Below, piece by piece: positions 1 through 13,307 of a DNA stretch of 14,358 nucleotides. Location: positions 1 through 14,358 of the forward strand of contig JAUSQB010000263.1 in NCBI GenBank assembly GCA_030652715.1, written 5' to 3'. The notes beneath the pieces were generated by a model. The model ran no database searches, was not told where the DNA came from, and saw only the letters and a list, made by a program, of their open reading frames with translations. Position numbers and translations under genes: made by a program. Source of the stretch: Rugosibacter sp. Lineage in GTDB: Bacteria > Pseudomonadota > Gammaproteobacteria > Burkholderiales > Rhodocyclaceae. Every line of letters begins with the position of its first letter. Positions within the stretch are counted from its first letter, which is position 1.

Positions 1-408
1 GTATCGACATGGATCTTTGCTATTTTTAAGAACAAGATCATCGACGAATTCCGTCGCCGCAGCCGCCTGCCGCAAGCGGATGTGGATGTTGAGCAAGAAC
101 AGGGATTTGACGACGCGTTGGAAGTGCAATTCGATGAGCGTGGTCATTGGGCTTCGCATCCCACGCCATGGGCCGACCCGCAGGCTTCGCTGGAGCAGAA
201 GCGGTTCTGGGAAGTATTCGAGGTTTGTATCAGCGGACTGCCTGAAAAACCCGCACGCGTTTTTGGCATGCGTGAATTGCTGGGCATGGAAACGGAAGAA
301 ATTTGTAAGGAACTCGGATTATCTACGTCGAATTGCTGGGTGCTCTTGCACCGGGCGCGTTTGGGGTTGCGCGATTGCTTGTCCCGACGCTGGTTTGGAG
401 AAAGTTAA
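1..408 (+). CDS. ECF-type RNA polymerase sigma factor, 3' part (5' end outside window)
   Basis: The frame is open from base 1 to the TAA at 406-408 and gives 135 residues without a start, so the gene begins before the window. The first residues (VSTWIFAIFKNKIIDEFRRR) match the end of sigma region 2, which contacts the -10 element. After an acidic linker, the stretch encoded at about 220-400 (LPEKPARVFGMRELLGMETEEI, then a helix with LHRARLGLRDCL) is a typical region 4 helix-turn-helix for the -35 element. The stop abuts the ATG of a small ZAS-type anti-sigma gene, the usual sigma/anti-sigma order. Both lie directly upstream of the copper-peptide genes, so this factor probably drives the operon, including itself. 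In Caulobacter, an ECF factor (SigF) controls a DUF692 operon. The signal sensed here is inferred, not seen. Confidence 0.9.
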   Translation, partial: VSTWIFAIFKNKIIDEFRRRSRLPQADVDVEQEQGFDDALEVQFDERGHWASHPTPWADPQASLEQKRFWEVFEVCISGLPEKPARVFGMRELLGMETEEICKELGLSTSNCWVLLHRARLGLRDCLSRRWFGES

Positions 409-606
409 ATGCGTTCGTGTCGTGAAGAAACAGAATTGATGTCGCAGAGACTGGATCGCCCGCTGTCATTCGGCGAGCATTTTGGTCTGTGCTTTCATCT
501 GTTATTCTGCCGTGGCTGTCGCGCGACGCAAAAGCATTTTGCCTTTCTGCACACTGCCACACGGGCCTGGCGAGAGCATCACGATGTTGATTCAACTCCG
601 CGTTAA
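409..606 (+). CDS. Small zinc-finger (ZAS/zf-HC2-like) anti-sigma factor
   Basis: This 65-residue protein starts immediately after the stop of the ECF sigma gene. It carries C4 and the H30-x3-C34-x2-C37 signature of ZAS domains (HLLFCRGC), which in known anti-sigma factors bind zinc and hold the partner sigma factor inactive. No membrane segment is visible, so it is probably cytosolic and may sense metal or oxidants through its own Cys/His cluster. Position and motif make it the likely regulator of the upstream sigma factor. It is shorter than many anti-sigma factors, but compact zf-HC2 proteins of this size are common beside ECF genes. The family call is secure; the sensing role is inferred. 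Confidence 0.8.
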   Translation: MRSCREETELMSQRLDRPLSFGEHFGLCFHLLFCRGCRATQKHFAFLHTATRAWREHHDVDSTPR

Positions 607-620
607 TCATTGACAACCTT

Positions 621-626
621 AAGGAG
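621..626 (+). promoter_or_regulatory. Shine-Dalgarno sequence of the precursor peptide gene
   Basis: AAGGAG lies 4 bases before ATG 631 and 7 bases before ATG 634. It is among the strongest ribosome-binding sites in this operon, as expected for an abundant precursor peptide. It also decides the start: the in-frame TTG at 610 lies upstream of the site and has none of its own. Confidence 0.75.
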
Positions 627-630
627 CAAT

Positions 631-999
631 ATGATGAAAAAGATGAATTCCCTGACTTTAGCTGTTGGAGCCGCTTTTGCAACGACCGTTCTCAGCGCAG
701 CTGCTTTTGCTGGCAGTAACCCGTTTGCCATGCAAAAGCTCGATAGCGGTTACCAGCTCGCAGCTGCTGATGCCAACAAGAAAATGGATGGTTCATGCGG
801 CGACAAAATGAAAGATGGCAAGTGCGGTGCCAAAATGAAAATGAAAGACGGCAAATGTGGTGAAGGCAAGTGTGGTGCGGATATGAAGAAGGTGTCCGAC
901 GGTAAATGTGGCGCCGACAAGAAAAAAGATGGTAGCTGTGGTGCTGGTAAAAAAATGGAAGAAACCACGGAAACGCCCAAAACTGAAGAAGCAAAGTAA
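631..999 (+). CDS. hvfA: HvfA/oxazolin-like secreted RiPP precursor with six (E/D)G(K/S)CG motifs
   Basis: This 122-residue protein has a Sec signal peptide (MMKK, a hydrophobic core, probable cleavage after AFA at 25-27). A short segment follows (NPF at 30-32, LDSGYQLA at 37-44) that recurs in precursors of this class. The Lys/Gly/Asp-rich core then has exactly six cysteines, at 56, 65, 76, 81, 93 and 103. Their motifs are DGSCG, DGKCG, DGKCG, EGKCG, DGKCG and DGSCG; the tail is acidic (ETTETPKTEEAK). In Haemophilus influenzae HvfA, six cysteines are converted by HvfB/HvfC into oxazolone/thioamide pairs that bind Cu(I). The DUF692 and DUF2063 genes follow directly. The start is ATG 631 or 634, judged from AAGGAG at 621-626. 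Modification and copper binding are inferred from the family. Confidence 0.88.
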   Translation: MMKKMNSLTLAVGAAFATTVLSAAAFAGSNPFAMQKLDSGYQLAAADANKKMDGSCGDKMKDGKCGAKMKMKDGKCGEGKCGADMKKVSDGKCGADKKKDGSCGAGKKMEETTETPKTEEAK

Positions 1000-1016
1000 T
1001 AAGCAAGTTTGCAGCC

Positions 1017-1874
1017 ATGAAATCCGCTGTGATTTCAGGTGCGGGCCTCGGCTTCAGGCGGGAACTTGTTCCCGCGCTGAAAGCCGGGGTGCCAAGCCCT
1101 GTGAGTTTTTTTGAACTGGCCCCTGAAAACTGGGCTGGCATGGGCGGTAGCTCAGCCCAGGATTTACGCGCTTTTACCGAGCGCTACCCCTTTGTTTGTC
1201 ATGGATTGTCGCTTGATCTGGGCGGCCCTTCGGCGCTGGATACGGTCTTGCTTCATCGCATCCGCAGTTTCATGCGGCAGCAAGGCATCACGTTGTATAC
1301 CGAGCACTTATCCTGGTGTGCCGATGATGGTCATTTGTACGATCTGTTGCCGATTCCGCTCACAGAAGATGCCGTGCACTGGGTCGCAGGCCGCATCCGC
1401 CGCGCGCAGGATATTTTGGGCATGCAGATCGGCATTGAAAATGCCTCGACTTACCTGATTCCGCCTGGTGCGGAAATGACGGAAGCCGAATTCATCCGCG
1501 CTGTGATGGATGAGGCGGATTGCTTGCTGCATCTGGACGTGAATAATATTGTTGTCAATAGCCTGAATCATGGCTTTAATGCCAGAGAGTTTCTGCGGTC
1601 TCTGCCGCTGGAGCGTATCTGCTATATCCATGTGGCGGGTCACCATGTCGAGCCGGATGGACTGGTGATTGACACCCACGGTGCGGATGTCATTGCCCCG
1701 GTGTGGCAATTGCTCGCAGAAGCCTATGCGCTGTGTGGTGCCATACCTACCTGCCTCGAACGTGATTTTAATTTCCCTGAGCTGACGGTGCTCAGTCACG
1801 AGGTTGCGCACATTGCGAGACTACAAGAGCGCCATGAGATGCGTGAGAATAAGATTCAACGAGCCATCGCATGA
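1017..1874 (+). CDS. hvfB: DUF692 multinuclear non-heme iron oxidase (MNIO), HvfB/BufB/MbnB-like
   Basis: This 285-residue TIM-barrel-type protein is of normal family length. It carries the DUF692 landmarks: GAGLGFRREL (8-17), FELAPENW (32-39), HGLSLDLGG (62-70), TEHLSW (95-100), IENAST (140-145), LDVNN (173-177), NHGFN (184-188), IHVAGHH (204-210), DTHGADV (219-225) and LERDFN (247-252). The His, Glu, Asp and Asn residues in these motifs are the kind that hold the two or three iron atoms in MbnB, HvfB and ChrH. Such enzymes oxidise cysteines of a peptide substrate, here most likely the six cysteines encoded just upstream. Its stop overlaps the next ATG (ATGA at 1871-1874), so it is probably translationally coupled to its DUF2063 partner. 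The enzyme should act in the cytoplasm before export. Confidence 0.95.
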   Translation: MKSAVISGAGLGFRRELVPALKAGVPSPVSFFELAPENWAGMGGSSAQDLRAFTERYPFVCHGLSLDLGGPSALDTVLLHRIRSFMRQQGITLYTEHLSWCADDGHLYDLLPIPLTEDAVHWVAGRIRRAQDILGMQIGIENASTYLIPPGAEMTEAEFIRAVMDEADCLLHLDVNNIVVNSLNHGFNAREFLRSLPLERICYIHVAGHHVEPDGLVIDTHGADVIAPVWQLLAEAYALCGAIPTCLERDFNFPELTVLSHEVAHIARLQERHEMRENKIQRAIA

Positions 1875-2662
1875 ACGCGCTACCGCCCTTTCAGGATTTT
1901 CAATTTGCGTTGGCCCGGCACCTGCGTCACCCGCGCCGCGTCCCGAGTCCCGTGGGTGTGTCAGTGCGCTGCTCAGCGGTATACCATGAGCTAGTACGTA
2001 ACAATCTTGAAGGTTTTTTGCTGGCTTGTTTCCCTGTGTCGCACACGCTGCTTGGCGTGCGGCGCTGGTCACGATTAGTCGATGCTTTTTTTCGCGAAGC
2101 ACGATGTCACACGCCGTATTTTCGCGAAATTCCGCGTGAATTTTTGCACTGGTTGCTTGAATCCCCTTCGCTGCCGATCAGCTTTCCCGCCTGGTTGCCA
2201 GAGCTAGCTCATTACGAATGGGTCGAGCTGGCGGTTGATGTGATGGAAACAGCGACACCACTCGCGCACCACCCCACAGGCAATCTGCTGGATGGGCAGC
2301 CGGTGCTGGCAGCGGCGGCAATGAATCTCGCCTATGCCTGGCCGGTGCACCGCATCAGCCCCGCGTGGCGGCCACGCAAACCCGGCGCGACGCATTTGCT
2401 GGTGTTTCGCGACGTGCACGAGGCGGTGCAATTTGTCGCGTTGAATCCGGTTAGCGCACGTTTGGTGGCTTTGCTGCAAGCGGCCGAAGGCGAGCTTAGC
2501 GGTCGCGACGCTTGCCTGCAGATTGCCCATGAATTGCAGCATCCTGAGCCGGAACAACTGCTTGTGCATGGCGCACATTTGTTAGATCAACTACGCACCG
2601 CAGGTGCTATTTTAGGGAGCAAAAAATGGCAAAGCTATGGGCAGCTATTGTGCGTTTTCTGA
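1871..2662 (+). CDS. hvfC: DUF2063 partner protein of the MNIO (HvfC/BufC-like)
   Basis: This 263-residue protein starts in an ATGA overlap with the DUF692 gene. The N-terminal DUF2063 domain is recognisable from [20 protein letters not shown] (37-56) and [12 protein letters not shown] (112-123). The remaining ~130 residues fit the C-terminal domain that contains the RiPP recognition element in HvfC. Known partners bind the leader of the precursor and present it to the DUF692 enzyme. The 3' end runs 37 bases into the DoxX-like gene, so the last ~12 residues are encoded in two frames and look less conserved than the rest. The function comes from the family and the gene order; no catalytic residues are expected. 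Confidence 0.9.
2614..2619 (+). promoter_or_regulatory. Shine-Dalgarno sequence of the DoxX-like gene
   Basis: AGGGAG stands 6 bases before ATG 2626, inside the end of the DUF2063 gene. It supports a start at 2626 and therefore a genuine 37-base overlap between the two genes. Confidence 0.65.
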
Positions 2663-3129
2663 ATGCTACAGGGGACTGGTTGGGTTTTTTGGGTTTGCGT
2701 TTACTCTTGGGCTGGGAGTTCTTTGAATCCGGTCTGGAAAAATATCATGGGGATAACTGGTTTGCCGACATTCAGGATAAATTTCCTGCGCCGTTTAATC
2801 TCATGCCAGTGAATATCAGCTGGTCCATGGCGACCTGGTTTGAGTTGATCGGTGGCGTGGCCCTGGTCATTGGATTGGGTACGCGGTTTTTTGCGGTATC
2901 TCTTTTTGTGCTGACTATTGTGGCAACCGCAGCTGTCCATTGGCCAGCCGAATGGCATACGCTGGGCGAGTTGATACAGGGTTATGCCATCACCAATGAC
3001 GGCCACGGTAATTTCAAGCTGCCATTGATATTTATGGCGATGCTCTTGCCGTTGATTTTTTCCGGCCCGGGAAAATTATCGCTGGATGCCTGGATTGTCC
3101 GGCGTTGTTTGGGCAAGGCATGGCGATAG
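2626..3129 (+). CDS. DoxX family inner-membrane protein of the copper-peptide operon
   Basis: This 167-residue protein has the DoxX layout of about four membrane segments: near residues 19-35 ([19 protein letters not shown]), 65-85 ([19 protein letters not shown]), 87-105 and 130-147. DoxX-type proteins accompany DUF692/DUF2063 genes in many oxazolin and bufferin operons. Their role is not settled; an electron-transfer or membrane redox function, or a help in export, has been considered. The start is supported by AGGGAG at 2614-2619. The gene overlaps the previous one by 37 bases and the following CWC gene by 10 bases, so it is firmly part of the operon. Confidence 0.88.
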
Positions 3130-3401
3130 AAAAGTTCCTGAAAGGACGCACCGCGCTGGCGCTGGTGATACGCCGCGAAGCAAGTGCCCTTGTCCAGGCA
3201 CGGATTCAAAGGGTGCCGCAAGATAGTCCCTCTTGGTGTCCGCGTTGCGCGGCAAACTTCACCTGTGGCGTAGTTGCGGGGCTCGATACTTGCTGGTGTA
3301 CGGAATTACCACCACTTAAGTTAGCCAAAAGTTCTGCCGCTGCTTGCTATTGCCCGCAATGCTTGCATGAGCTGCTTAGCGCGCAGTCTCACCCAGCGTA
3401 A
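3120..3401 (+). CDS. Cysteine-rich CWC family protein
   Basis: This is a 93-residue protein whose ATG overlaps the TAG of the DoxX-like gene. Eight cysteines fall in the last 54 residues in the CWC family pattern: C40-x2-C43, F-x-C49, CWC at 58-60, the ELPP that follows, then C76-x-C78-x2-C81-L. This looks like a compact metal-binding (probably zinc or copper) domain; the biochemical role of the family is unknown to me. The first ~38 residues (MAIEKFLKG onward, basic) lie outside the family core. They may be a true extension or an effect of a wrongly chosen start, as no good ribosome-binding site is visible. The 3' end overlaps the convergent nudB gene by 26 bases. Operon membership suggests a link to copper handling; that link is inference. 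Confidence 0.8.
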
Positions 3402-3816
3402 GAATTGCGTCGCGGTTGCTCCACGAAAAGCAGGCCGCTGCGGCTTCTTTCCACGGCAGCCATTGGTAGGCGATATGCTCGTCCGGGGTGATTTTTATTG
3501 GGCATTTTTCGGCGAGCATCAAGCTGAATACATGCTCGGTGTTGTGCGTCACCCCCGGCCCGTAACGGTAGCGCCACTCGGGGAATATTTCGAAACGATT
3601 GGTTGTTTGCCAGTCAAGAAATTGTGTAATCGCTGCTTGAATTCCTGTTTCCTCAAACACTTCACGCTGGGCTGTCAGGTTAAGTGGCTCATTATCTTCC
3701 TGGCTGCCTGTTACTGATTGCCAGAAGCCGCGGCGCTGTGTGCGTTCTAACAACAGCACATCAAGCGCTGCTGTATGAATGATCACGAGCACTGAAACCG
3801 GTTTTTTGAAAACCAT
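3376..3816 (-). CDS. nudB: Dihydroneopterin triphosphate diphosphatase NudB (Nudix hydrolase)
   Basis: This 146-residue Nudix protein removes pyrophosphate from dihydroneopterin triphosphate in folate synthesis. A complete Nudix box is visible: G37-x5-E43-x7-REVFEETGI (51-59). The N-terminus (MVFKKPVSVLVII, then LLLERT and GFWQSVTGS) and the later EWRYRYGPGVTHNTEHVF region match NudB rather than a generic Nudix enzyme. The start at 3816 is chosen because the family sequence begins there and because it overlaps the stop of the barstar gene by one base (TAATG). The frame is open further upstream, but that part is only the shadow of the barstar gene. It is the last gene of the aspS operon, and its 3' end overlaps the convergent CWC gene by 26 bases. 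Confidence 0.92.
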   Translation of the reverse strand: MVFKKPVSVLVIIHTAALDVLLLERTQRRGFWQSVTGSQEDNEPLNLTAQREVFEETGIQAAITQFLDWQTTNRFEIFPEWRYRYGPGVTHNTEHVFSLMLAEKCPIKITPDEHIAYQWLPWKEAAAACFSWSNRDAILTLGETAR

Positions 3817-4286
3817 TATCTGGATACATCTCCGGATTCCGGCTGAGCGATCACGGGCAGCCAGGCGATGCCATCGGCTTGCATATCGACCAGGCACCAG
3901 AACGGTATGCCTTGTTCGCGCCATTCGCTGGCAACATGCTGGAAGACCTGCACCAGGGTGACGAAATCGTTTTCGGCGTGGGCATGGATACCATCGCAAT
4001 GGTCGAGAATGATCACATAACCTTCGGCGGGACGCCAACCCATATCGAGCAGGCAGTCGCTAAGCGCATCCCAGTTATAGCCGAACCATTCAGGAAAACC
4101 AAGACCGTAGCCTATGGCTGCGAGCAACTCATCTCGGTTGCGGGTACTGCGCAAATCAATGCGTTGCACGAGACAGCCTGCCGATTGGGCACCTGCGATC
4201 AGGTCGTTCAACTTTCCGTGCGGTAAATGATAGACACCCGCATGGCCGACTGTACTAAACAATGTCTGATAGTGAGCAACGCTCAT
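3816..4286 (-). CDS. Barstar family protein, probable inhibitor of the neighbouring ribonuclease
   Basis: This is a 156-residue cytosolic protein without a signal peptide. The barstar signature is clear at residues 64-79 (FPEWFGYNWDALSDCL). D73 and D77 line up with barstar D35 and D39, the residues that contact the barnase active site. The protein is longer than Bacillus barstar (about 90 residues), with extra sequence at both ends; such longer forms are common in proteobacteria. Its ATG overlaps the TGA of the ribonuclease gene (ATGA at 4283-4286), so the two are made together, as needed for self-protection against a ribonuclease. Pairing with the adjacent enzyme is inferred from context. 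Confidence 0.88.
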   Translation of the reverse strand: MSVAHYQTLFSTVGHAGVYHLPHGKLNDLIAGAQSAGCLVQRIDLRSTRNRDELLAAIGYGLGFPEWFGYNWDALSDCLLDMGWRPAEGYVIILDHCDGIHAHAENDFVTLVQVFQHVASEWREQGIPFWCLVDMQADGIAWLPVIAQPESGDVSR

Positions 4287-4618
4287 CGTTGAATTTTCAG
4301 AAAGCTGCGATAGTGATCATCAGTGTAATAGAACACGGCAGGCGGTGTGCCGCCGCTGATGATGCGGCGCGCTCCTCGGTCATGTCGGCCGGGTGTCGGT
4401 ACGGTGTATTCGTGATAATAGGCGCGCGGTTCGACCGGCAGGCGCTTCTCGAAATTATTGAAGACGATGCCATCCCGTGGATACGGGAAAGGGCCGCTCT
4501 GGTCAATCAGTGCAAGCGTTGCGCGCGCCTCGGCCGGTAATTGCCCGACGGTGATAAAGTCGCCTGCCTTTGCGGAGAGCGAAAAAGCAACACACAACAG
4601 GGCAAGCAGTTTGTGCAT
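4283..4618 (-). CDS. Secreted barnase/RNase Sa-like ribonuclease
   Basis: This 111-residue protein has a Sec signal peptide (MHKLLALLCVAFSLSAKA, probable cleavage after residue 18). The mature part of about 93 residues is the size of RNase Sa and barnase. Landmarks are GPFPYPRDGIVFNNFEKRLP (42-61), YYHEYTV (67-73), GARRII (82-87) and YYTDDHYRSFLKI (97-109). By alignment with barnase, E70 is the general base, R85 the phosphate-binding arginine and H102 the general acid, so the catalytic set is complete. It should cut single-stranded RNA with a guanine preference, outside the cytoplasm. The barstar-like inhibitor follows with a 4-base overlap. The gene starts 18 bases after the aspS stop. The role could be nutrient scavenging or competition; the sequence does not decide. 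Confidence 0.88.
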   Translation of the reverse strand: MHKLLALLCVAFSLSAKAGDFITVGQLPAEARATLALIDQSGPFPYPRDGIVFNNFEKRLPVEPRAYYHEYTVPTPGRHDRGARRIISGGTPPAVFYYTDDHYRSFLKIQR

Positions 4619-4636
4619 CTCGTGTGCTGCCTGCTG

Positions 4637-6442
4637 TTAGCCAACCTGAACCTGGGTTTCCATTTTTTGCCGCAGGCGAATATGCAATTCGCGCAATTGT
4701 TTTTCGTCAACAACGGATGGTGCATCGGTGAGCAGGCACTGCGCGCGCTGTGTCTTGGGGAAGGCAATCACATCGCGAATCGATTCGGCACCGGTCATCA
4801 TGGTGACAATGCGATCCAGGCCAAACGCCAAGCCGCCATGCGGTGGCGCGCCGTATTTCAGCGCATCCAGCAGGAAGCCGAATTTGGTCTGCTGTTCTTC
4901 TGGCGTGATGCCAAGCGCTTGAAACACTTGCTCCTGCACTTCTGCGCGATGGATACGCACTGAACCGCCGCCCATTTCCCATCCGTTCAAGGCCAGATCG
5001 TAAGCCTTGGCCATGCACGCGCCGGGGTCGGCCGCCATGAGTTGTTCGTGACCATCTTTCGGGCTGGTGAAGGGATGGTGGCAGGCATTCCAGCGCTTAT
5101 TTTCTTCGTCATATTCAAACATCGGAAAATCCACCACCCACAATGGTCGCCAGGCTTCTCCGCTGAGATAGCCTTTGTCGTGGCCCAGCTTGCTGCGTAG
5201 CGCACCGAGGGCATCATTGACGATTTTAGTTTTGTCGGCGCCGAAGAAAATCAGGTCGCCCGACTGCGCGCCGGTACGTTCGACAATGGCTGCCAGCGCT
5301 TTTTCGTGCAGGTTTTTAACAATAGGCGATTGCAGACCTTCCTCATTGAGTCTGCTGGCGTCATTCACTTTGATATAGGCCAAGCCTTTGGCACCGTAGA
5401 TTTTAACAAACTCGGTGTAAGCATCGATCTCGCTGCGCGTCAGGGCTTTTTCGCCGACACCGCCGCCGGGCACGCGCAGTGCGGCGACGCGGCCACCAGA
5501 ATTTGCCGGACCGCTGAATACTTTGAAGCCAACGTCAGCGACCGCATCGGTGACATCGATCAGTTCCAGCGTGACGCGTAAATCGGGCTTGTCGGAGCCA
5601 TAGCGATGCATGGCCTCATTATGGGGCATGCGAGGGAAAGGGTTGGGCAGATCGATATTCAGCGCGGTTTTAAAGACGCTGCGTATCATTTCTTCCATCA
5701 AGTCGGTGATTTGGATCTCGGTTAAAAACGATGTTTCGATATCCACTTGGGTGAATTCAGGCTGGCGATCAGCGCGCAAATCTTCGTCACGGAAGCATTT
5801 GGTGATTTGATAGTAGCGGTCGTAACCGGCCACCATCAACAGCTGTTTGAATAACTGCGGCGATTGTGGCAGCGCGAAAAACTGGCCGGGATGAACGCGC
5901 GATGGCACCAGGTAATCGCGTGCGCCTTCGGGCGTCGATTTGGTCAGCATCGGCGTTTCAATGTCGATGAAGCCCTGCTCGTCGAGGAAGCGGCGGAAGG
6001 CCATGGCGACTTTGTAGCGCAGCATCAGGTTCTTTTGCATTTGTGGGCGGCGCAGGTCGATCACGCGATGCGTGAGGCGCACGTTTTCCGACAGATTGTC
6101 GTCATCCAACTGGAAGGGCGGGGTTACCGCCGTGTTGAGCACTTCCAGGTCATGACAAAGAATTTCAATCTCCCCGGTGGGCAGATTGGGATTCTCGGTG
6201 CCGACAGGACGGCGGCGCACGAGTCCTGTGACTTTGAGCACATATTCGTTGCGCACATCCTCGGCGACTGCGAACATCTCTGGTCGGTCCGGGTCGCAAA
6301 CAATCTGCGCCAGGCCTTCGCGGTCGCGCAAGTCGATGAAAATCACGCCACCATGGTCGCGTCGGCGATGGTTCCAGCCGCACAGGGTAACGATCTGGTC
6401 AATGTGAGAAGCATTAACTTGGCCACAATATTGAGTACGCAT
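4637..6442 (-). CDS. aspS: Aspartyl-tRNA synthetase
   Basis: This 601-residue class II synthetase is of the usual bacterial length. An N-terminal anticodon-binding OB-fold ([20 protein letters not shown], 22-41) precedes the catalytic domain. The catalytic domain shows motif 2 ([17 protein letters not shown]), the GAD insertion region, and motif 3 near the end ([11 protein letters not shown]). It is collinear throughout with proteobacterial AspRS. H30 corresponds to H31 of Pseudomonas AspRS, a residue linked to the non-discriminating enzymes that also charge tRNA-Asn for the GatCAB route, so this one may be non-discriminating. The ATG at 6442 has GGA 7 bases upstream. The gene lies 48 bases after the DUF502 gene. 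Confidence 0.97.
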
Positions 6443-6490
6443 AATAAGTTCCGAACTGAGATGAGTTCCCCCAGTGTAGCTGGTGGGCGG

Positions 6491-7144
6491 TTATTGGTTT
6501 TGGGCGCGCCCGAACAGGTTTCTCATGGGCGGGGCGACGACCCCCATGGAGACAATGTATTTCAGGGCATCATCGACGTTCATGTCGAGCTCGATGACAT
6601 CGCAGCGTTTGACAAAGAAGAAAAATCCATTGACTGGGCTGGGTGTTGTTGGAATAAAAACACCGACATATTCTTCAGGCAGCACAGCCGCGACATTCTG
6701 CGCCGGATTGCCTGTCTGAAAAGCAACAGCCCATGCTTCGGGATGGGGGTAACGCACTAGCAATACTTTGCGAAACGCCTCACCTTTCCCGGAGAATAGT
6801 GTATCGCTTACTTGTTTAACTGCGTAATAGACTGATTTAACGATGGGAATGCGTGAAAGAATGGCTTCCCAAAAGCGCACCAGGCGTTGCCCGACGATGT
6901 TTGTGGCAAGCAGCCCCGTGAGAAAAATGACCGCAATCGTCAAGATAACGCCCAGACCCGGCAGATAGAAGCCCAGCAGGTTTTCAGGCTGAATGACCTC
7001 AGGTAGCAGCATCAACGACTGATCCATCGAGCGTACGGTCAGTGCCAGCACCCAGATAGTAATTCCCAAGGGTACCCAGATCAGCAAGCCGGTAACAAAA
7101 TATTTTTTCAAGGCAAAGAGACCGTTGTAGGGGTTTGCATTCAA
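6491..7144 (-). CDS. DUF502 family inner-membrane protein
   Basis: This 217-residue protein has two strong N-terminal membrane segments (about residues 15-36 and 60-84) and a soluble C-terminal domain. The family hallmarks are YFVTGLLIWVPLGITIWVL, IPIVKSVYYAVKQ and VFIPTTPSPVNGFFFFV. The family function is unknown; it often sits beside aspS in betaproteobacteria, as here. The call begins at a TTG whose last bases overlap the stop of the fmdB-like gene (TTGA at 7141-7144). No ATG or GTG start exists further upstream before an in-frame stop, and no convincing ribosome-binding site is visible. A second candidate is TTG at 7111, directly before KKYFVTG. The start is therefore uncertain by 11 residues, but the family assignment is firm. 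Confidence 0.88.
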   Translation of the reverse strand: MNANPYNGLFALKKYFVTGLLIWVPLGITIWVLALTVRSMDQSLMLLPEVIQPENLLGFYLPGLGVILTIAVIFLTGLLATNIVGQRLVRFWEAILSRIPIVKSVYYAVKQVSDTLFSGKGEAFRKVLLVRYPHPEAWAVAFQTGNPAQNVAAVLPEEYVGVFIPTTPSPVNGFFFFVKRCDVIELDMNVDDALKYIVSMGVVAPPMRNLFGRAQNQ

Positions 7145-7434
7145 GCCTTGGTGCTGGCGGGTGTAGCTGATGAGGCAGCGGGGGCCTCAACCTTGGTTTC
7201 GGACGTTTTCTCTGTTGTTTTTTCGGTGGTTACGGCTGGCTTTCCTGAGGTACCTCCTTTGAAATCAGTGGCATACCAGCCGCTTCCCTTGAGTTGAAAG
7301 CCGGGAGCAGTGAGTTGTTTGACCAAAGATTCAGTGTGACATTGAGGGCAGAGTGTCAGCAGAGGGTCGCTTATTTTCTGCATGAACTCTTTCTCAAAGT
7401 TGCACTGAGTACAACGATAAGCATAGATCGGCAT
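7141..7434 (-). CDS. FmdB family zinc-ribbon protein
   Basis: This is a small 97-residue protein that begins MPIYAYRC, the canonical FmdB start. It has one zinc ribbon made by C8-x2-C11 and C29-x2-C32, followed by the conserved GFQLKGSGWYATDF (46-59). The C-terminal third is a low-complexity Thr/Ala/Ser/Lys tail, normal for the family. FmdB proteins are thought to act as small regulators, but the role here is unknown. It is the first gene of the fmdB-DUF502-aspS-RNase-barstar-nudB operon and lies 31 bases downstream of a TATAAT element. The frame stays open to 7491, but MPIYAY at 7434 is the family start and transcription probably begins after 7466. Confidence 0.92.
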   Translation of the reverse strand: MPIYAYRCTQCNFEKEFMQKISDPLLTLCPQCHTESLVKQLTAPGFQLKGSGWYATDFKGGTSGKPAVTTEKTTEKTSETKVEAPAASSATPASTKA

Positions 7435-7465
7435 GGCATTTTCTCGTGTGTCTGAATAGGAAATG

Positions 7466-7471
7466 ATTATA
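7466..7471 (-). promoter_or_regulatory. Probable sigma-70 -10 element for the fmdB-aspS operon
   Basis: A perfect TATAAT reads on the minus strand in the short gap between pilD and the fmdB-like gene, 31 bases before the ATG at 7434. No clean -35 hexamer is found at 16-18 bases spacing; TTGGCC lies 14 bases upstream. GC-rich dyad GGCCC-CT-GGGCC (7478-7489) overlaps that -35 region and could be a protein-binding site. Confidence 0.5.
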
Positions 7472-7512
7472 GCCGAAGGCCCCTGGGCCAAGGAATCCGG
7501 GATGCGCAGGGT

Positions 7513-8370
7513 TTACAGCATCATGCCGAGATAAGCCTGGGTAAGCGATTTCCCCCAGATCAAGGCTACAACCCCTGCTGCGGCAAGATAAGGCCCAAAA
7601 GGAATAGGTTCTTGGCGGTCATGTTTTGACACCACAATGAGCGAGATGCCGACTATGGCACCTACCAGTGAGGACAACAGGATCGTTATGGGAAGCATTT
7701 GCCACCCCAGCCAGGCACCGAGGGCCGCCAGCAATTTAAAGTCGCCATATCCCATGCCTTCTTTGCCGGTGACGAGCTTGAATAGCCAATACACGCTCCA
7801 CAGTGACAAATAGCCTGCTATAGCCCCAATCACTGCACTTTTAAGATCGGTATACGTGCCAAACAGATTAAATAGCAAACCAATCCAGAGCAGCGGTAGC
7901 GTAATGTTATCGGGTAGCAACTGCGTATCGTAGTCAATACAGGTGAGTGAAATCAGTGCTGCGATAAAAATCATTGCACCCCAACCCGCAGCGGTTAAAC
8001 CAAAGTGCATGGCAGCAAAGATAAATAATGCTGCTGTCGTTAGCTCCACCAAAGGATAACGAATAGAGATTGGTGTTTTGCAAGTACTGCACCGGCCACG
8101 CAGAAAAAGCCAGCTAAAGAGCGGGATATTTTCAGTCACTGTGATGGCATGGCTGCATTTTGGGCAGCGCGAGCGCGGATGAGACAGGCTGAGCGGCTCA
8201 AAAACAGGTGGCGCATCGCCACGCAAATCAGCACATTGCGTGGTCCAATCGCGTTCCATCATAATGGGCAAACGGTGAATCACGACGTTAAGAAAGCTGC
8301 CCACTGCCAAGCCCAGCAAGCCGACGATCAAAACCGCCACCGACGGATCAGTAATCCACAAGGCGCTCAT
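7513..8370 (-). CDS. pilD: Type IV prepilin peptidase/N-methyltransferase PilD
   Basis: This 285-residue inner-membrane aspartyl protease cleaves the leader of type IV prepilins and related pseudopilins and methylates the new N-terminus. GSFLNVVIHRLP (24-35) is the canonical start of the methyltransferase domain. Two CxxC pairs at 69/72 and 94/97 form the cytosolic zinc site. The protease aspartates lie in CIDYDTQLLPD (D146) and GMGYGDFKLLAALGAW (D210). PIPFGPYLAAAG near the end is also typical. The protein is full length with several membrane helices. It follows pilC after 9 bases, so the two are probably co-transcribed. Confidence 0.96.
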   Translation of the reverse strand: MSALWITDPSVAVLIVGLLGLAVGSFLNVVIHRLPIMMERDWTTQCADLRGDAPPVFEPLSLSHPRSRCPKCSHAITVTENIPLFSWLFLRGRCSTCKTPISIRYPLVELTTAALFIFAAMHFGLTAAGWGAMIFIAALISLTCIDYDTQLLPDNITLPLLWIGLLFNLFGTYTDLKSAVIGAIAGYLSLWSVYWLFKLVTGKEGMGYGDFKLLAALGAWLGWQMLPITILLSSLVGAIVGISLIVVSKHDRQEPIPFGPYLAAAGVVALIWGKSLTQAYLGMML

Positions 8371-8379
8371 GAACAGCGC

Positions 8380-9612
8380 TTAACCGACAACCGAACCCAG
8401 CTTGAAGATGGGCAGATACATTGCAACGACAAGGCCGCCAATAAGCACACCCAAAATTACCATGATGATGGGTTCCATCAGACTGGACAAGGCATCGACA
8501 GCGTCGTCAACCTCGGCCTCGAAAAAGTCGGCTACTTTGCCTAGCATGGAATCGAGTTGCCCTGATTCTTCGCCAATAGCAACCATTTGCGTCACCATGG
8601 GGGGGAATACATTCGAGTTTTGCATGGCGATGGTCAGGCTGGAGCCGGTAGTCACTTCGTTTTGAATCTCTTGGGTCGCTGTGGCATAGACATAGTTGCC
8701 CGATGCCCCTCCGACGGAGTCCAGCGCCTCAACAAGGGGCACACCTGCGGCAAACATGGTGGATAAAGTACGGGTCCAGCGGGCGATAGAGGTTTTGCGA
8801 ATCAGGTCGCCAAAGACGGGAAGCTTGAGCGCGTATTTATCCACTGCGATTTGGAAGGCGCGTGAGCGTTTGAAAGCGTATACCACGGCGTAGATGGCGG
8901 CAAAGATAGCCCCGAAAATGATATGCCAGTTCGCCACAAAACCATCTGAAATGGCGATAACGACGAGGGTAGGGCCTGGCAAATCGCCGCCAAAGCTGGC
9001 GAACACACCTTTGAATGCGGGGACAACGAAAATCATGATCACTGCAGTGATGACAAAGGCGACCACCAGAATCGACGTGGGGTAGAACATCGCGCTTTTC
9101 AGCTTGGACTTGATCGCCTGTATTTTTTCTTTGTAGCTGGCTAGCCGGTCAAGCAGTGTGTCCAGTATGCCTGCTTGTTCGCCCGCAGCGACGAGATTGC
9201 AGAACAACGCATCGAAATGCAGCGGGTATTTACGAAATGCAGTGGCCAGGCTGGCCCCTGTTTCAACATCTGTTTTGATGTTGATCAATAACCTGGCGAG
9301 TGCCGGGTTATTGGTGCCTTTACCGACAATATCGAATGACTGCAACAAGGGGACACCGGACTTCACCATGGTAGCAAGCTGGCGGGTGAATAACGTAATG
9401 TCCTTGTCGGTAACCTTGCCGCCAGAGCCGATCTTTTTTTGTTTGAGTATGCTGACCAGGATGCCTTGACGGCGCAATGAAACCTGCGCAACGGCTGCGC
9501 TTGGCGCATTCATTTCGCCGCGGACAACCTTGCCAGCTTTATTTTTGCCTTCCCAAAGGAAGGTGGCATCTTTTGCAGTAAGTCTTTTTTGCGCTGCTGT
9601 CGTTGTTGCCAT
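8380..9612 (-). CDS. pilC: Type IV pilus inner-membrane platform protein PilC
   Basis: This 410-residue protein has two tandem T2SSF domains. The first begins near residue 75 (FTRQLATMVKSGVPLLQSF) and the second near 278 (WTRTLSTMFAAGVPLVEAL). Each is followed by a GE-x-SG/AG-type motif (VAAGEQAGILDTLLDRLA, VAIGEESGQLDSMLGKVA). Three hydrophobic segments span the membrane, and the C-terminus MYLPIFKLGSVVG is typical for PilC. It forms the platform that couples the ATPases PilB and PilT to pilin assembly. The ATG at 9612 has GAGG 8 bases upstream and AAGGGG directly adjacent. pilD follows 9 bases downstream. The expected neighbour pilB does not precede it; a CNNM/CorC-type gene lies there instead. 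Confidence 0.97.
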   Translation of the reverse strand: MATTTAAQKRLTAKDATFLWEGKNKAGKVVRGEMNAPSAAVAQVSLRRQGILVSILKQKKIGSGGKVTDKDITLFTRQLATMVKSGVPLLQSFDIVGKGTNNPALARLLINIKTDVETGASLATAFRKYPLHFDALFCNLVAAGEQAGILDTLLDRLASYKEKIQAIKSKLKSAMFYPTSILVVAFVITAVIMIFVVPAFKGVFASFGGDLPGPTLVVIAISDGFVANWHIIFGAIFAAIYAVVYAFKRSRAFQIAVDKYALKLPVFGDLIRKTSIARWTRTLSTMFAAGVPLVEALDSVGGASGNYVYATATQEIQNEVTTGSSLTIAMQNSNVFPPMVTQMVAIGEESGQLDSMLGKVADFFEAEVDDAVDALSSLMEPIIMVILGVLIGGLVVAMYLPIFKLGSVVG

Positions 9613-9669
9613 CCCCTTGCCCTCAGTCTAGTTGCTTGTCATTGCACTCGACAAATCATGCCAAGAGTA

Positions 9670-10941
9670 TCACTCTTGCGCAGGATAGTGAAGACGGACC
9701 ATTTTAACCTTGCGATCCTGAGTTTGAATAATCTCCATGGGTACCCCGTTGACTTTGACGCCAACCCCCGCTTCAGGGATGTCTTGCAAGTGCTCAATGA
9801 TCAATCCATTCAACGTGCGAGGGCCGTCAACGGGAAGATCAAGTTCAAGCTGACGGTTTAATTCGCGCAAGCTGATAGCGCCATCTACCAACACGGTTCC
9901 TGCTTCATCCCACGTCAGACGCGAACTTACATCCGCCTGGCGGGTGGTAAATTTTCCGACCAGCGCTTCAACAATATCTTCCAGGGTAACCAGGCCTTGA
10001 ATTTCGCCATATTCATCCACCACCAGTCCGAGGCGCTGGCGGTTTTCGCGGAAAAACTGAAGCTGAGTGTAGATGGGTGTCGCTGCTGGAATGAAATACG
10101 GTGCAACCATTCTGTCGCGCAAGATTTCCAGATCGATTTCACCATTAAAGGCTTCAGTAAGCAAATGGCGCAGGCGGAGCACGCCTATGACATTTGCCGA
10201 ATCATGCTCGGTAACGATTACGCGTGTGTGGTAGCTCGTAGCAAGCTGCGCCATGATTTCATCTATGGGCGCAGCAATATCAATAGTTTCGATCTCACCC
10301 CGTGGCGTCATGATGTCGGCTACAGTGACATGTTCCAGTTCAAACAAATTCAGCAGAATAGAGCGGTGCTGTGATGGGATGAATTGGCCAGAATCAAGCA
10401 CTACAGCACGCAACTCTTCAGCGGACAAATGGTGCCCTTCGGCATCTGGCTTGGGTTGCAAATGCAGGAACCGCAACAAGGGACGGACAAACAGATTGAT
10501 GAACCACACAACCGGATAAGCGATGCGCAATAACGGTGTCAAGATATAACTGATGCGAATGGCCAGCCAGTCTGAATGCATTGCACCGGCGACTTTTGGC
10601 GTGATTTCAGAAAACACCAGCAAGCAGAAAGTGACAAAAACCGCACCGGCTTCAAGCGACCATTTTTCATTACCAAAGACGGTCAACGCAATATTTGCGG
10701 TCAGCATTGCAGCCAGCGAATTAATGAGCGTATTGCCAAGCAAAATCACGCCTAGCAACTGGTCTGTTTTGCTCAGTAACTGGATTGCCAGCCGTGCGCC
10801 ACGATGCCCTTCCTTGGCTAAATGCCGCAGACGGATGCGGTTGGAAGCCATCATCACGGTTTCGGCCATGGAAAAAAAGCCGGACACAATCAGCAATGCG
10901 GCAAGCCCTAAAAATTGCGTGCCAAGGGGCAATTCATCCAT
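9670..10941 (-). CDS. CNNM/CorC-type transporter (DUF21 + CBS pair + CorC_HlyC domain)
   Basis: This 423-residue inner-membrane protein has the YtfL/YfjD-type architecture. The N-terminal DUF21 (CNNM) domain has about four membrane segments (residues 10-180) with SGFFSMAETVMMASNRIRLRHL (20-41), GNTLINSLAA and FSEITPK. A CBS pair follows at about 205-335 (MTPRGEIETID, LGLVVDEYGEIQGLVTLEDI). The C-terminal CorC_HlyC domain spans about 340-420. Such proteins are implicated in magnesium or cobalt export and ion homeostasis; the older label hemolysin is not supported for this family. The gene follows the CcsA-like gene by 23 bases and precedes pilC by 57. No good ribosome-binding site is seen, but the N-terminus fits the family. 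Confidence 0.9.
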   Translation of the reverse strand: MDELPLGTQFLGLAALLIVSGFFSMAETVMMASNRIRLRHLAKEGHRGARLAIQLLSKTDQLLGVILLGNTLINSLAAMLTANIALTVFGNEKWSLEAGAVFVTFCLLVFSEITPKVAGAMHSDWLAIRISYILTPLLRIAYPVVWFINLFVRPLLRFLHLQPKPDAEGHHLSAEELRAVVLDSGQFIPSQHRSILLNLFELEHVTVADIMTPRGEIETIDIAAPIDEIMAQLATSYHTRVIVTEHDSANVIGVLRLRHLLTEAFNGEIDLEILRDRMVAPYFIPAATPIYTQLQFFRENRQRLGLVVDEYGEIQGLVTLEDIVEALVGKFTTRQADVSSRLTWDEAGTVLVDGAISLRELNRQLELDLPVDGPRTLNGLIIEHLQDIPEAGVGVKVNGVPMEIIQTQDRKVKMVRLHYPAQE

Positions 10942-10964
10942 CGATTTAGGCGATACGATTCAAG

Positions 10965-11819
10965 TCACGTGCTGCGGTTAAGAATAATCTCAAGCACAAA
11001 GCGGCTGCCCACATAGGCGAGCAGCAAGGCGACAAATCCGGCCAGTGTCCAGCGCAATGCCACCCTGCCGCGCCAGCCCCGCAGATGGCGGCCAATAAGC
11101 AGGGCGGCGAAAATCAGCCAGGAAATAATCGCAAATACTGTTTTATGGTCAAACTTCAAGGCCTTGCCAAACAGGTCCTCGGAAAAAAATATGCCGGACG
11201 CCAAGGTGAGTGTCAGCAGCACAAAGGCAATATGAATTAAGCGAAACAATAGGGTTTCCATGGTCAGCAAGGGAGGCAAACCAGCGAGCCAGGGTGAAAT
11301 TTTTCCGCGATGCAGCCCGCGTTCCGCTGCGGCCATGAGCAAGGCGTGCAACGCAGCCAGTGTAAACAGGCTGTAAGACAGCATGGCGGCGAGCAAATGC
11401 AAGCGCAGAGCCGGGGAGCTGGCATTGGCCAGAATATGCGGTTCGGTGAATAGGGCGGGTAACAGGCTGGTTAACGCTGCGGCAGGCAAGCCCAGCGCCA
11501 GCAAGCCATTTAGCCGTGCGAAAAAACTTTCAATCCAGAGTAATACGATGGCTAGCCACACCATGACAGACAATGCGATAGCAAAACCAAAGTGTATTTG
11601 GGAACCATCAAAAATCGCTATGCGGATACTGATTGCATGCGCGGCTAATGCGGCGAGCAAGCTGATCCGCTCGACCAAAGCCAACCCGGGTAACCCGGCT
11701 GAACCATGAGCGGGCGGGTTACCCGGGTTGAGCGAGCCACGCCAACTCGTTCGCCACAATTGGAGAGATAGTGCGGTATATATCGCAGCAGCCAGCACAT
11801 GCATTACTATTGGAGACAT
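10965..11819 (-). CDS. CcsA/YpjD-like cytochrome c assembly family membrane protein
   Basis: This 284-residue protein has about eight hydrophobic segments and matches the short YpjD-type branch of the CcsA/CcmC family. Landmarks are AHAISIRIAIFDGSQIHFGFAIALS, LRLHLLAAMLSYSLFTLAALHALL, SGIFFSEDLFGKALKFDHKTVFAI and GWRGRVALRWTLAGFVALLLAYVGSRFVLEIIL. Full-length CcsA proteins handle haem for cytochrome c maturation; the role of the YpjD branch is less clear. Placement divergent from ffh is a common proteobacterial arrangement. The ATG at 11819 lies only 40 bases from the ffh ATG. The 5' coding part carries a 16-bp inverted repeat (11682-11730). Confidence 0.88.
   Translation of the reverse strand: MSPIVMHVLAAAIYTALSLQLWRTSWRGSLNPGNPPAHGSAGLPGLALVERISLLAALAAHAISIRIAIFDGSQIHFGFAIALSVMVWLAIVLLWIESFFARLNGLLALGLPAAALTSLLPALFTEPHILANASSPALRLHLLAAMLSYSLFTLAALHALLMAAAERGLHRGKISPWLAGLPPLLTMETLLFRLIHIAFVLLTLTLASGIFFSEDLFGKALKFDHKTVFAIISWLIFAALLIGRHLRGWRGRVALRWTLAGFVALLLAYVGSRFVLEIILNRST
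11682..11730. repeat. Perfect 16-bp inverted repeat inside the 5' part of the ccsA-like gene
   Basis: CAACCCGGGTAACCCG at 11682-11697 is exactly complementary to CGGGTTACCCGGGTTG at 11715-11730, with a 17-base loop. Each arm holds a CCCGGG palindrome. It lies about 90-138 bases into the coding region and encodes the Pro/Gly-rich loop NPGNPPAHGSAGLPG. The transcript should fold into a stable hairpin. Confidence 0.85.
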
Positions 11820-11859
11820 TCTTGAAGTCTACACTAAGCCATTTAATTCTATTGCCATC
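11820..11859. promoter_or_regulatory. Divergent promoter region between ccsA-like gene and ffh
   Basis: Only 40 AT-rich bases separate the two divergent start codons, so both promoters must lie here or extend into the opposite coding region. TAGAAT (minus strand, 11848-11853) is a possible -10 for the ccsA-like gene. No convincing -35 element or Shine-Dalgarno sequence is visible on either side, so exact sites are not claimed. Confidence 0.35.
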
Positions 11860-13215
11860 ATGCTCGACAATCTAACCCAGCGCTTCGGCCGCGTCGTTAA
11901 AAATCTCCGTGGCCAGGCTCGCCTGACCGAAGACAACATTACAGATATGCTCAGGGAAGTGCGCATGGCCTTGCTTGAGGCTGATGTGGCTTTGCCCGTC
12001 ATCAAGGACTTCATCGCTCGCGTCAAAGAAAAGTCGCTCGGCCAGGAAGTCATCGGCTCCTTGACGCCCGGCCAGGCGCTGGTAGGTGTTGTTCAGCGCG
12101 AACTCACCGAGCTCATGGGTGGCGCAAGTGTCGGCCTGAATCTGGCGACACAGCCCCCTGCCATTATTCTCATGGCCGGCCTGCAAGGGGCGGGTAAAAC
12201 GACGACGACGGCCAAGCTGGGCAAATGGCTCAAAGAGCGGCAAAAGAAAAAAGTGCTTACCGTCAGTTGCGACGTGTATCGCCCCGCTGCCATCGAACAA
12301 TTAAAAACCGTATCCGCCCAGGCGGGTATCGATTTTTTCCCCTCGACACCGGATCAGAAGCCAGCCGATATTGCTGCAGCCGCCATCGATTACGCCAAGC
12401 GGCATTTTTACGATGTGCTTTTTGTCGATACCGCCGGTCGGCTGGCGATTGATACCGCGATGATGACCGAGATTCGCGATTTGCATGCGCAGGTCAAACC
12501 CATCGAAACCCTGTTCATCGTGGACGCCATGCTCGGCCAGGACGCCGTGAACACTGCCAAAACATTTTCTGAAACGCTGCCCCTGACCGGCATTATCCTG
12601 ACCAAGCTGGACGGCGACGCACGCGGCGGTGCTGCGCTATCCGTGCGCCATGTCACCGGCAAACCCATCAAGTTTGCCGGGGTGGGTGAAAAGCTCGATG
12701 GCTTGGAAGAATTTCATCCCGAACGCATGGCCAGCCGTATTCTCGGCATGGGCGATATTCTGAGCCTGGTGGAAGAAGCCCACCGCACGGTAGACCAAGA
12801 AAAAGCGCAAGCCTTTGCCAAGAAAATGAAAACCGGCAAGGGCTTTGATCTGAACGACTTCAAAGAACAAATCGGGCAGATGAAAAAAATGGGCGGCATG
12901 GCCGGCCTGCTCGACAAGCTGCCCGCACAGTTAAGCCAGGCCGCGCAACAAGCCGGCGGCGCAGTCAATGATAAATCGATGAACCGCCTGGAAGGCATCA
13001 TCAACTCGATGACGCCGACGGAACGTACCAAACCGGAAATCATCAAAGCCACGCGCAAGCGTCGCATCGCAACGGGTTCCGGTGTATCGGTGCAGGAAGT
13101 CAATCGCCTGCTCAATCAGTTCGAGCAGACGCAAAAAATGATGAAGCAGTTTTCCAAAGGCGGCATGCAAAAGATGATGCGCGGCATGAAGGGGATGCTG
13201 CCGGGGATGCGGTGA
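11860..13215 (+). CDS. ffh: Signal recognition particle protein Ffh
   Basis: This 451-residue SRP54-type GTPase binds signal sequences and 4.5S RNA to target membrane proteins to FtsY. The N domain (MLDNLTQRF onward) is followed by the G domain with P-loop GLQGAGKT (107-114), CDVYRPAAIEQLK (137-149), DTAGR (190-194) and TKLDGD (248-253). The methionine-rich M domain ends with MKGMLPGMR. Length and motifs are complete. The frame is open upstream to 11728, but the family N-terminus is at 11860 and the extra part lies antisense within the divergent ccsA-like gene. No clear Shine-Dalgarno sequence precedes the ATG. Confidence 0.98.
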   Translation: MLDNLTQRFGRVVKNLRGQARLTEDNITDMLREVRMALLEADVALPVIKDFIARVKEKSLGQEVIGSLTPGQALVGVVQRELTELMGGASVGLNLATQPPAIILMAGLQGAGKTTTTAKLGKWLKERQKKKVLTVSCDVYRPAAIEQLKTVSAQAGIDFFPSTPDQKPADIAAAAIDYAKRHFYDVLFVDTAGRLAIDTAMMTEIRDLHAQVKPIETLFIVDAMLGQDAVNTAKTFSETLPLTGIILTKLDGDARGGAALSVRHVTGKPIKFAGVGEKLDGLEEFHPERMASRILGMGDILSLVEEAHRTVDQEKAQAFAKKMKTGKGFDLNDFKEQIGQMKKMGGMAGLLDKLPAQLSQAAQQAGGAVNDKSMNRLEGIINSMTPTERTKPEIIKATRKRRIATGSGVSVQEVNRLLNQFEQTQKMMKQFSKGGMQKMMRGMKGMLPGMR

Positions 13216-13246
13216 CGTGCTGAAAAACTTCTCTTGCGCCGTATCG

Positions 13247-13261
13247 CCAGCGCCGACTTTT
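13247..13261 (+). repeat. 15-bp direct repeat, left copy flanking the DUF2971 gene
   Basis: CCAGCGCCGACTTTT occurs here, 31 bases after the ffh stop, and again in the same orientation at 14227-14241. The sequence just upstream of both copies is also loosely alike (a gaps-and-mismatches match around TCTC..GC.CCG). The copies bracket the AT-richer DUF2971 gene. Confidence 0.7.
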
Positions 13262-13307
13262 GCCAATCAATTCAATCTTGGTCGCTTATCACCTTGTATC
13301 TTTCCCC

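Follow-up and report, generated by a model that had tools for sequence, protein, structure and literature searches.

A promoter-like element within the sigma factor gene of a captophorin operon from Rugosibacter

Operon content

The window analysed here, a 14,358-nucleotide stretch of DNA from Rugosibacter sp. (contig JAUSQB010000263.1), begins with what is, judging from its genes, a captophorin (oxazolin-type, HvfABCX) operon, a class that is already known. The leading gene encodes an extracytoplasmic function (ECF) sigma factor, and within that gene lies a promoter-like element, the main subject of this report. Seven genes are present on the + strand across positions 1-3401, separated in order by gaps of 0, 24 and 17 bases and then joined by overlaps of 4, 37 and 10 bases. 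Families were assigned by Pfam and NCBIfam profile matches with curated cut-offs:

1..408, + strand: ECF sigma factor, C-terminal part only (TIGR02943, 167 bits, cut-off 162.2; Sigma70_r4_2, 45.4 bits, cut-off 25.7)
409..606, + strand: soluble ZAS anti-sigma factor (predicted), 65 aa (NF052368, 57.4 bits, cut-off 50)
631..999, + strand: HvfA-type precursor with six Cys (NF050137, 34.9 bits, cut-off 19.5)
1017..1874, + strand: HvfB, MNIO (DUF692) maturase (PF05114, 319.5 bits; NF003818, 388.1 bits, cut-off 360)
1871..2662, + strand: HvfC, DUF2063 partner, PME1 (NF050145, 264.5 bits, cut-off 142)
2626..3129, + strand: HvfX, DoxX-like membrane protein (NF050144, 150.1 bits, cut-off 80)
3120..3401, + strand: Cys-rich CWC protein (PF14375, 36.1 bits, cut-off 24)

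The first-pass annotation of this DNA had named the same genes (ECF sigma, ZAS, six-Cys precursor, DUF692, DUF2063, DoxX-like and CWC) on a single strand with gaps below 25 bases or overlaps, and that inventory stands. The block recurs in relatives, so the gene set is not a chance assembly. In a Rugosibacter metagenome-assembled genome (locus L002), whose MNIO is 87% identical, the gene order is identical and the sigma gene is intact. The annotation had also called the operon complete, which it is not in the window: base 1 is the start of the contig, and the 5' half of the sigma gene is cut off there. The remaining fragment aligns with residues 55-189 of the 189-aa L002 sigma, which is itself 100% identical to the sigma of another genome of the same genus (G005). 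A DNA search of the window's 82%-complete genome, made with no positive control, returned no match to the 591 bases of L002 that span the start of sigma and the sequence ahead of it.

The ZAS gene starts directly after the sigma gene. Its product carries C4, H30, C34 and C37 (HxxxCxxC plus N-terminal Cys4) at the positions given for meningococcal NMB2145 (MseR), in which Cys4, Cys34 and Cys37 are required for full activity; its score against zf-HC2 (21.7 bits) is marginally below the cut-off of 22.2, and neither it nor the CWC protein has a PDB relative at E <= 1. A sigma/ZAS pair that shares an operon with such peptide genes is already known in Neisseria. The earlier claim that the operon has its own ECF regulator is borne out by the ECF/ZAS pair at its head. 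Considered jointly with the proposed internal promoter described below, control of the captophorin operon by this sigma factor and its predicted ZAS anti-sigma factor is likely.

A promoter-like element in the sigma gene

A sigma-type promoter sequence, GTAAG-N16-CGTC, occurs at window positions 305-333, within the sigma gene and about 75 bases 5' of the anti-sigma gene (ATG at 409). The codons at 301-333 are ATT TGT AAG GAA CTC GGA TTA TCT ACG TCG AAT, encoding I-C-K-E-L-G-L-S-T-S-N, and the proposed parts are as follows:

305..313, + strand: proposed -35, GTAAGGAAC, in codons C-K-E-L of the region 4 helix-turn-helix; 7/9 against N. meningitidis sigmaE GTMAGBWTT
314..325, + strand: spacer of 12 nt, whose codons vary among relatives; the Neisseria spacer is 12-13 nt
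326..333, + strand: proposed -10, CGTCGAAT; 7/8 against Neisseria CGTCTAAH

The full Neisseria sigmaE promoter consensus is GTMAGBWTT-N12/13-CGTCTAAH. The helix encoded by the -35 codons is the helix that reads -35 elements, and TGT AAG together with the NCG codon is retained in sigma-first relatives with a GC content of 0.66-0.68. We infer that this candidate element is the promoter used by the sigma factor whose gene holds it. The first-pass annotation had missed this putative embedded promoter, which we take as the main point of the locus. No sigma-70-type promoter was found in window positions 1-3600, where shuffles gave 2.5, and, judged by titles and the opening lines of abstracts, the open-access papers searched held no recognisable report of an ECF sigma gene that harbours the promoter of its anti-sigma.

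Synonymous constraint

The element was surveyed in a first set of 155 collected sigma genes, 126 of which were kept at no more than 92% identity. Of the 18 sigma-ZAS-MNIO loci whose ZAS was recognised, 16 have both halves (16/19 if one without is included), as against none of 24 MNIO-sigma-ZAS loci and none of 12 divergent ones. Both halves also occur in two of four loci with the MNIO gene on the other strand and their own ZAS. Of the 67 loci that have no MNIO in reach, 65 have a ZAS, and the 27 with both halves all belong to these 65. At the level of single codons, TGT and NCG are each found in 16/18 sigma-ZAS-MNIO genes, compared with 5/24 (TGT) and 1/24 (NCG) in the MNIO-sigma-ZAS order. 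When the 18 sigma-ZAS-MNIO genes were shuffled synonymously (200 shuffles), the motif appeared in a mean of 1.5 and a maximum of 5 genes, against 16 observed; for the 65 ZAS-bearing genes without MNIO in reach, the mean was 4.1 and the maximum 9, against 29 observed with the motif anywhere. Anywhere in frame, the motif is found in one of the 24 MNIO-sigma-ZAS genes, far from its usual place.

Forty-nine genes were picked by the -35 half alone, and because of this the behaviour of the -10 codon is not circular. Forty-five of them have Ser, Thr, Ala or Pro at that codon (T 18, S 11, A 9, P 7), and every one of the 45 uses NCG; among comparison columns the next best reaches 57% and the median is 33%. 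At no more than 65% identity the count is 30/30. Per-codon conservation in genes selected by the motif was dropped as circular, control groups also having high columns.

The definitions were left unchanged for a held-out set of 120 more sigma genes, taken from 20 loci and 100 stretches. Of these, 117 share no more than 92% identity with the first set, and dropping near-duplicates brought the number to 115. In these 115, both halves occur in 68, the -35 half only in 4, the -10 half only in 8 and neither in 35 (Fisher p 2e-17, uncorrected for relatedness), and synonymous shuffles gave a mean of 8.4 and a maximum of 14. Where the -35 half is present with Ser, Thr, Ala or Pro, NCG is used in 70/71 cases (next column 66%, median 35%). 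Thinning to at most 65% identity leaves 72 genes, split 43/3/4/22 in the same order, with NCG in 45/45 (next column 65%, median 39%). Both promoter halves are under nucleotide-level (synonymous) constraint. Shared ancestry alone would be a poor explanation for it, the synonymous sites being so diverged.

Locus architectures and the place of the site

Profiles built from the window proteins were used to map 80 loci in genome contigs and 30 from relatives, a survey that took in the window's own genome. HvfABCX genes occur with sigma-ZAS after them, with sigma-ZAS before them (as in the window), with the ZAS before the precursor and sigma divergent, or with no sigma nearby. Sigma-last loci often have GTAAG-N16/17-CG[AT]C[TC]A, or a sequence close to it, directly 5' of the precursor; in divergent-sigma loci, the same kind of site is directly 5' of the ZAS gene. 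Matches of at least 10/11 upstream of the first gene, scored against shuffles, occur in 8/29 sigma-last loci, 9/22 divergent loci (some of which have an unrelated sigma), 7/41 loci with no sigma and 0/16 sigma-first loci.

A promoter upstream of sigma was also sought in sigma-first loci, and none was found. With start codons guessed, some upstream stretches short and the truncated window counted among the 19 sigma-first loci, a site upstream of sigma was present in 0/19 sigma-first, 0/24 MNIO-sigma-ZAS, 0/12 divergent and 0/4 MNIO-other-strand loci, and in 2/67 without MNIO in reach. When the 650 bases preceding the precursor region are considered, a stretch that in sigma-first loci takes in the embedded element, a site is present in 18/19, 16/24, 11/12 and 3/4 loci of the first four kinds, where dinucleotide shuffles give expectations of 0.2, 0.15, 0.15 and 0. 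Five loci (L162, L164, L165, L168 and L173) have, besides the embedded site, another of the form GTAAG/GTAAT...CGAC a few hundred bases away, where the same sigma factor may have a second target.

In loci L145-L370 there are 214 distinct sigma genes. A ZAS was recognised downstream of 205 of them, and the element is present in 116 of these and in one of the nine without ZAS. It therefore belongs more widely to this sigma/ZAS family. In loci with the embedded element, 73 of 79 next genes after the ZAS were scanned, leaving aside one near-duplicate, the gene of the window itself and four of its congeners. Among recognised genes in that position, captophorin precursors are the commonest: the HvfA repeat domain was found in 19 and DUF2282 in 5, the others including one thioredoxin-like gene, two AhpC-like genes, peptidoglycan enzymes and unrelated neighbours. 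In one locus (L241, G022:C408), the embedded motif is present in a bufferin-sort cluster with a different precursor type, arranged sigma-ZAS-precursor-MNIO-DUF2063-DoxX-CWC.

Proposed regulation and alternative explanations

From these comparisons, we consider it likely that the captophorin operon is under ECF sigma/ZAS control, with a sigma-dependent promoter embedded in the region-4 helix-turn-helix codons of the sigma gene. The same arrangement probably extends to a large gammaproteobacterial ECF group (in the GTDB sense, the window's order included), in which the codons of the -35-reading helix would double as the promoter that the sigma reads, placed for the anti-sigma gene and often a captophorin operon, in an inhibitor-first loop. 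In such a model, the sigma factor would be made from another promoter and kept bound by ZAS. Thiol or metal (copper or oxidative) stress would disable ZAS and release the sigma, which would then fire the internal promoter, so that ZAS-hvfABCX-CWC would be transcribed and the sigma gene would not. With the promoter placed inside the sigma gene, sigma would drive its inhibitor and the copper peptide and not itself, the outcome being a burst of effectors that brings its own negative feedback. HvfB with HvfC would convert the cysteines of the secreted six-repeat precursor into copper-binding 5-thiooxazoles.

It may be that the operon serves mainly against envelope oxidative (hypochlorite) stress, with copper binding secondary. 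Relatives of this sigma in Neisseria and Haemophilus control msrAB and the doxX cluster, Haemophilus RpoE2 is tied to hypochlorite, and the window ZAS retains the three cysteines needed for full MseR activity. However, characterised captophorin products bind copper (PMC13097082), the window peptide is Cys-rich and predicted to be secreted, and expression of meningococcal sigmaE is unaltered by oxidative stimuli; we rate a mainly oxidative role as somewhat less likely than not. A second alternative accepts the internal element as a true nucleotide signal, read by another regulator or acting as RNA (an operator, a copper-regulator box or an RNA element near the sigma/ZAS junction). What has been observed is sequence constraint, which fits a signal of this kind too, but the halves and their spacing resemble the Neisseria sigmaE consensus as well as the sites found between genes in sister loci, and the intervening codons vary, as those of a compact operator or stem would not. 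We regard such a signal as unlikely. Equally improbable is that the letters reflect helix-turn-helix protein conservation and codon bias, with a single transcript from a promoter upstream of sigma: although the helix is conserved at the protein level, the closely abutting genes would suit one transcript and the Neisseria operon is autoregulated, shuffles that keep protein and codon usage give the motif in far fewer genes (1.5/18 and 8.4/115) than the 16 and 68 observed, NCG is retained while the -10 residue varies among Ser, Thr, Ala and Pro, both codons are scarce in the MNIO-sigma-ZAS order, and no sigma-type site was found upstream of sigma in the 19 sigma-first loci.

Several points weigh against a sigma-dependent promoter inside the sigma gene. 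The promoter status of the candidate element is argued from sequence constraint and consensus likeness, and the window's -10 departs from the Neisseria consensus by one base and its -35 by two. The strict consensus gave 0 matches in the loci searched with it, after which the shorter core GT[AC]AG ... CG[AT]C was adopted, and the element is absent from 3/19 sigma-ZAS-MNIO loci. Both gene arrangement and motif are clade-bound: on a sigma tree built without the motif columns, the arrangement changes only twice, so the equation of sigma first with an embedded promoter rests on few independent events, and the link between arrangement and motif was rejected as an independent association. On supported branches the halves co-vary in 4.6 versus 0.3 pairs (median p 0.125) and 4.6 versus 0.0 (0.0625), which falls short of 0.05 because there are too few supported pairs. 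In six genomes of the genus the pattern has 8 matches against 3 for a reversed control, and the 8 drop to 2 when the sigma site is left out; the pattern was shaped after these sites had been seen, and the genome-wide count was rejected as support. Finally, a second promoter may precede sigma, the window's upstream region lying beyond the contig end.

Peptide class and modification

The precursor has an N-terminal signal that appears Sec-like on reading, and its Cys motifs are, in order, DGSCG, DGKCG, DGKCG, EGKCG, DGKCG and DGSCG. Membership of the HvfA/B/C/X family, as first annotated, is supported by HvfB, HvfC and HvfX matches above curated cut-offs and by the HvfA-type repeat of the precursor; against the narrow HvfA equivalog NF050188, the precursor scores 19.7 bits (cut-off 95). 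Structural relatives are PDB 3bww for HvfB (E 1.5e-69) and PDB 3dee for HvfC (E 9.5e-14). The earlier description "oxazolin/bufferin-type" is sound in its first half. A strict bufferin is not indicated: DUF2282 was not found in the precursor, which has 0 Pfam families at E <= 0.1, the MNIO falls below the cut-off of the BufB equivalog NF050167 (245.2 versus 310), and a ZAS takes the place of NrsF. The MNIO is also far below the MbnB (methanobactin) equivalog TIGR04159 (35.6, cut-off 325).

The oxazolone/thioamide chemistry given in the annotation has been superseded, the oxazolin modification having been revised to 5-thiooxazole (PMC13097082), and gonophorin has likewise been assigned 5-thiooxazole (PMC13419390). 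In repeats of the window, L006 and L003, the residue before the Cys drifts from Lys to Ser or Ala (DGSCG, DGACG). FonBC, a characterised relative, modifies the DGKCG variant fully and accepts Ala, Arg or Thr at the Lys position (PMC13097082). Given this tolerance of Lys replacements, the two DGSCG sites are, by analogy, plausible maturase substrates.

The CWC gene and neighbouring regions

No signal peptide is seen in the CWC protein by reading. In 101 genomes, MNIO is matched in 58, CWC in 56 and both in 41; in 11 of the 41 the pair shares a contig and strand and is no more than 3 kb apart (tables read by eye), namely the seven genomes of the window's genus with MNIO plus G022, G026, G037 and G054. 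CWC recurs at these loci as an accessory gene and is not part of their core. As an obligate member it was rejected, most CWC genes being located away from MNIO genes. Its inclusion in the operon by the first-pass annotation is upheld in that the gene is present and recurrent, but not as a recorded cluster member: the MNIO landscape paper, the one survey checked, has 0 occurrences of "cwc" in its main text.

Two other loci depart from the usual set. In the congener G001 (L240, G001:C4:397500-404000, approximately 2639-4600 in reverse-strand coordinates), sigma-ZAS-hvfA-hvfX-CWC is kept and hvfBC is lost, with only an N-terminal hvfB remnant at the locus and no MNIO match in that genome; a second precursor-like frame, rich in Met, Lys and Cys, is located between hvfX and CWC. 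In G046 (L242, G046:C11:57000-67500, approximately 2100-2562), a CWC gene directly follows sigma-ZAS with no captophorin genes, and a second CWC fragment adjoins an independent MNIO gene on the opposite strand.

Window positions 3376-14126 hold what we take, from reading, to be mostly housekeeping genes: NUDIX hydrolase, barstar-like, aspS, FmdB-like, PilD, PilC, CorC-like and ffh. The NUDIX frame runs convergently into the 3' end of the CWC gene, with an overlap.

Relation to known systems and significance

Captophorin operons are widespread, with more than 24,000 MNIO-PME1 loci (PMC13097082). The window operon resembles Haemophilus influenzae hvfABCX and the fontiphorin and gonophorin captophorins in its [DE]G-x-C-G precursor, MNIO, DUF2063 partner and DoxX-like protein, and has six repeat cysteines as HvfA does. 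It differs in that HvfA has EGKCG repeats, whereas the window precursor has three DGKCG, one EGKCG and two DGSCG, and in that the block also contains sigma, ZAS and CWC genes. It is also like the Neisseria sigmaE operon NMB2140-NMB2145 with MseR, which shares the DoxX-like protein, ECF sigma, ZAS (C4/H30/C34/C37) and a similar promoter consensus, as well as peptide genes whose gonococcal counterparts have been shown to make captophorin. There, however, sigma and ZAS (NMB2144, NMB2145) end the operon and the consensus is drawn upstream of NMB2140, giving a self-amplifying sigma; in the window, sigma comes first and the promoter-like element is within its gene. Bufferin 1 of Caulobacter vibrioides likewise combines MNIO, DUF2063 and DoxX under an ECF system (copper stress), but its DUF2282 precursor and NrsF anti-sigma are absent from the window. 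A parallel to the element itself is the Caulobacter sigV promoter in cabp, a sigma-circuit promoter embedded in an upstream coding sequence (PMC13171946). That promoter drives sigma from inside another gene, whereas the window element is inside sigma and would drive the anti-sigma. Further literature drawn on is PMC12452194, PMC2893595, PMC3240639 and PMC7907618.

Little is known about how captophorin operons are switched. If the reading proposed here is true, the internal promoter would set the sign of the feedback: inhibitor and copper peptide would rise without sigma, producing a pulse, where the Neisseria order would produce self-amplification. To annotate sigma and anti-sigma at such loci as one simple unit under autoregulation would then be a mistake. 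The same letters would encode a helix of the protein and form the DNA site which that helix reads, and the sigma protein, with Cys-Lys/Gln at one half and Ser/Thr/Ala/Pro at the other, would be constrained by its own target.

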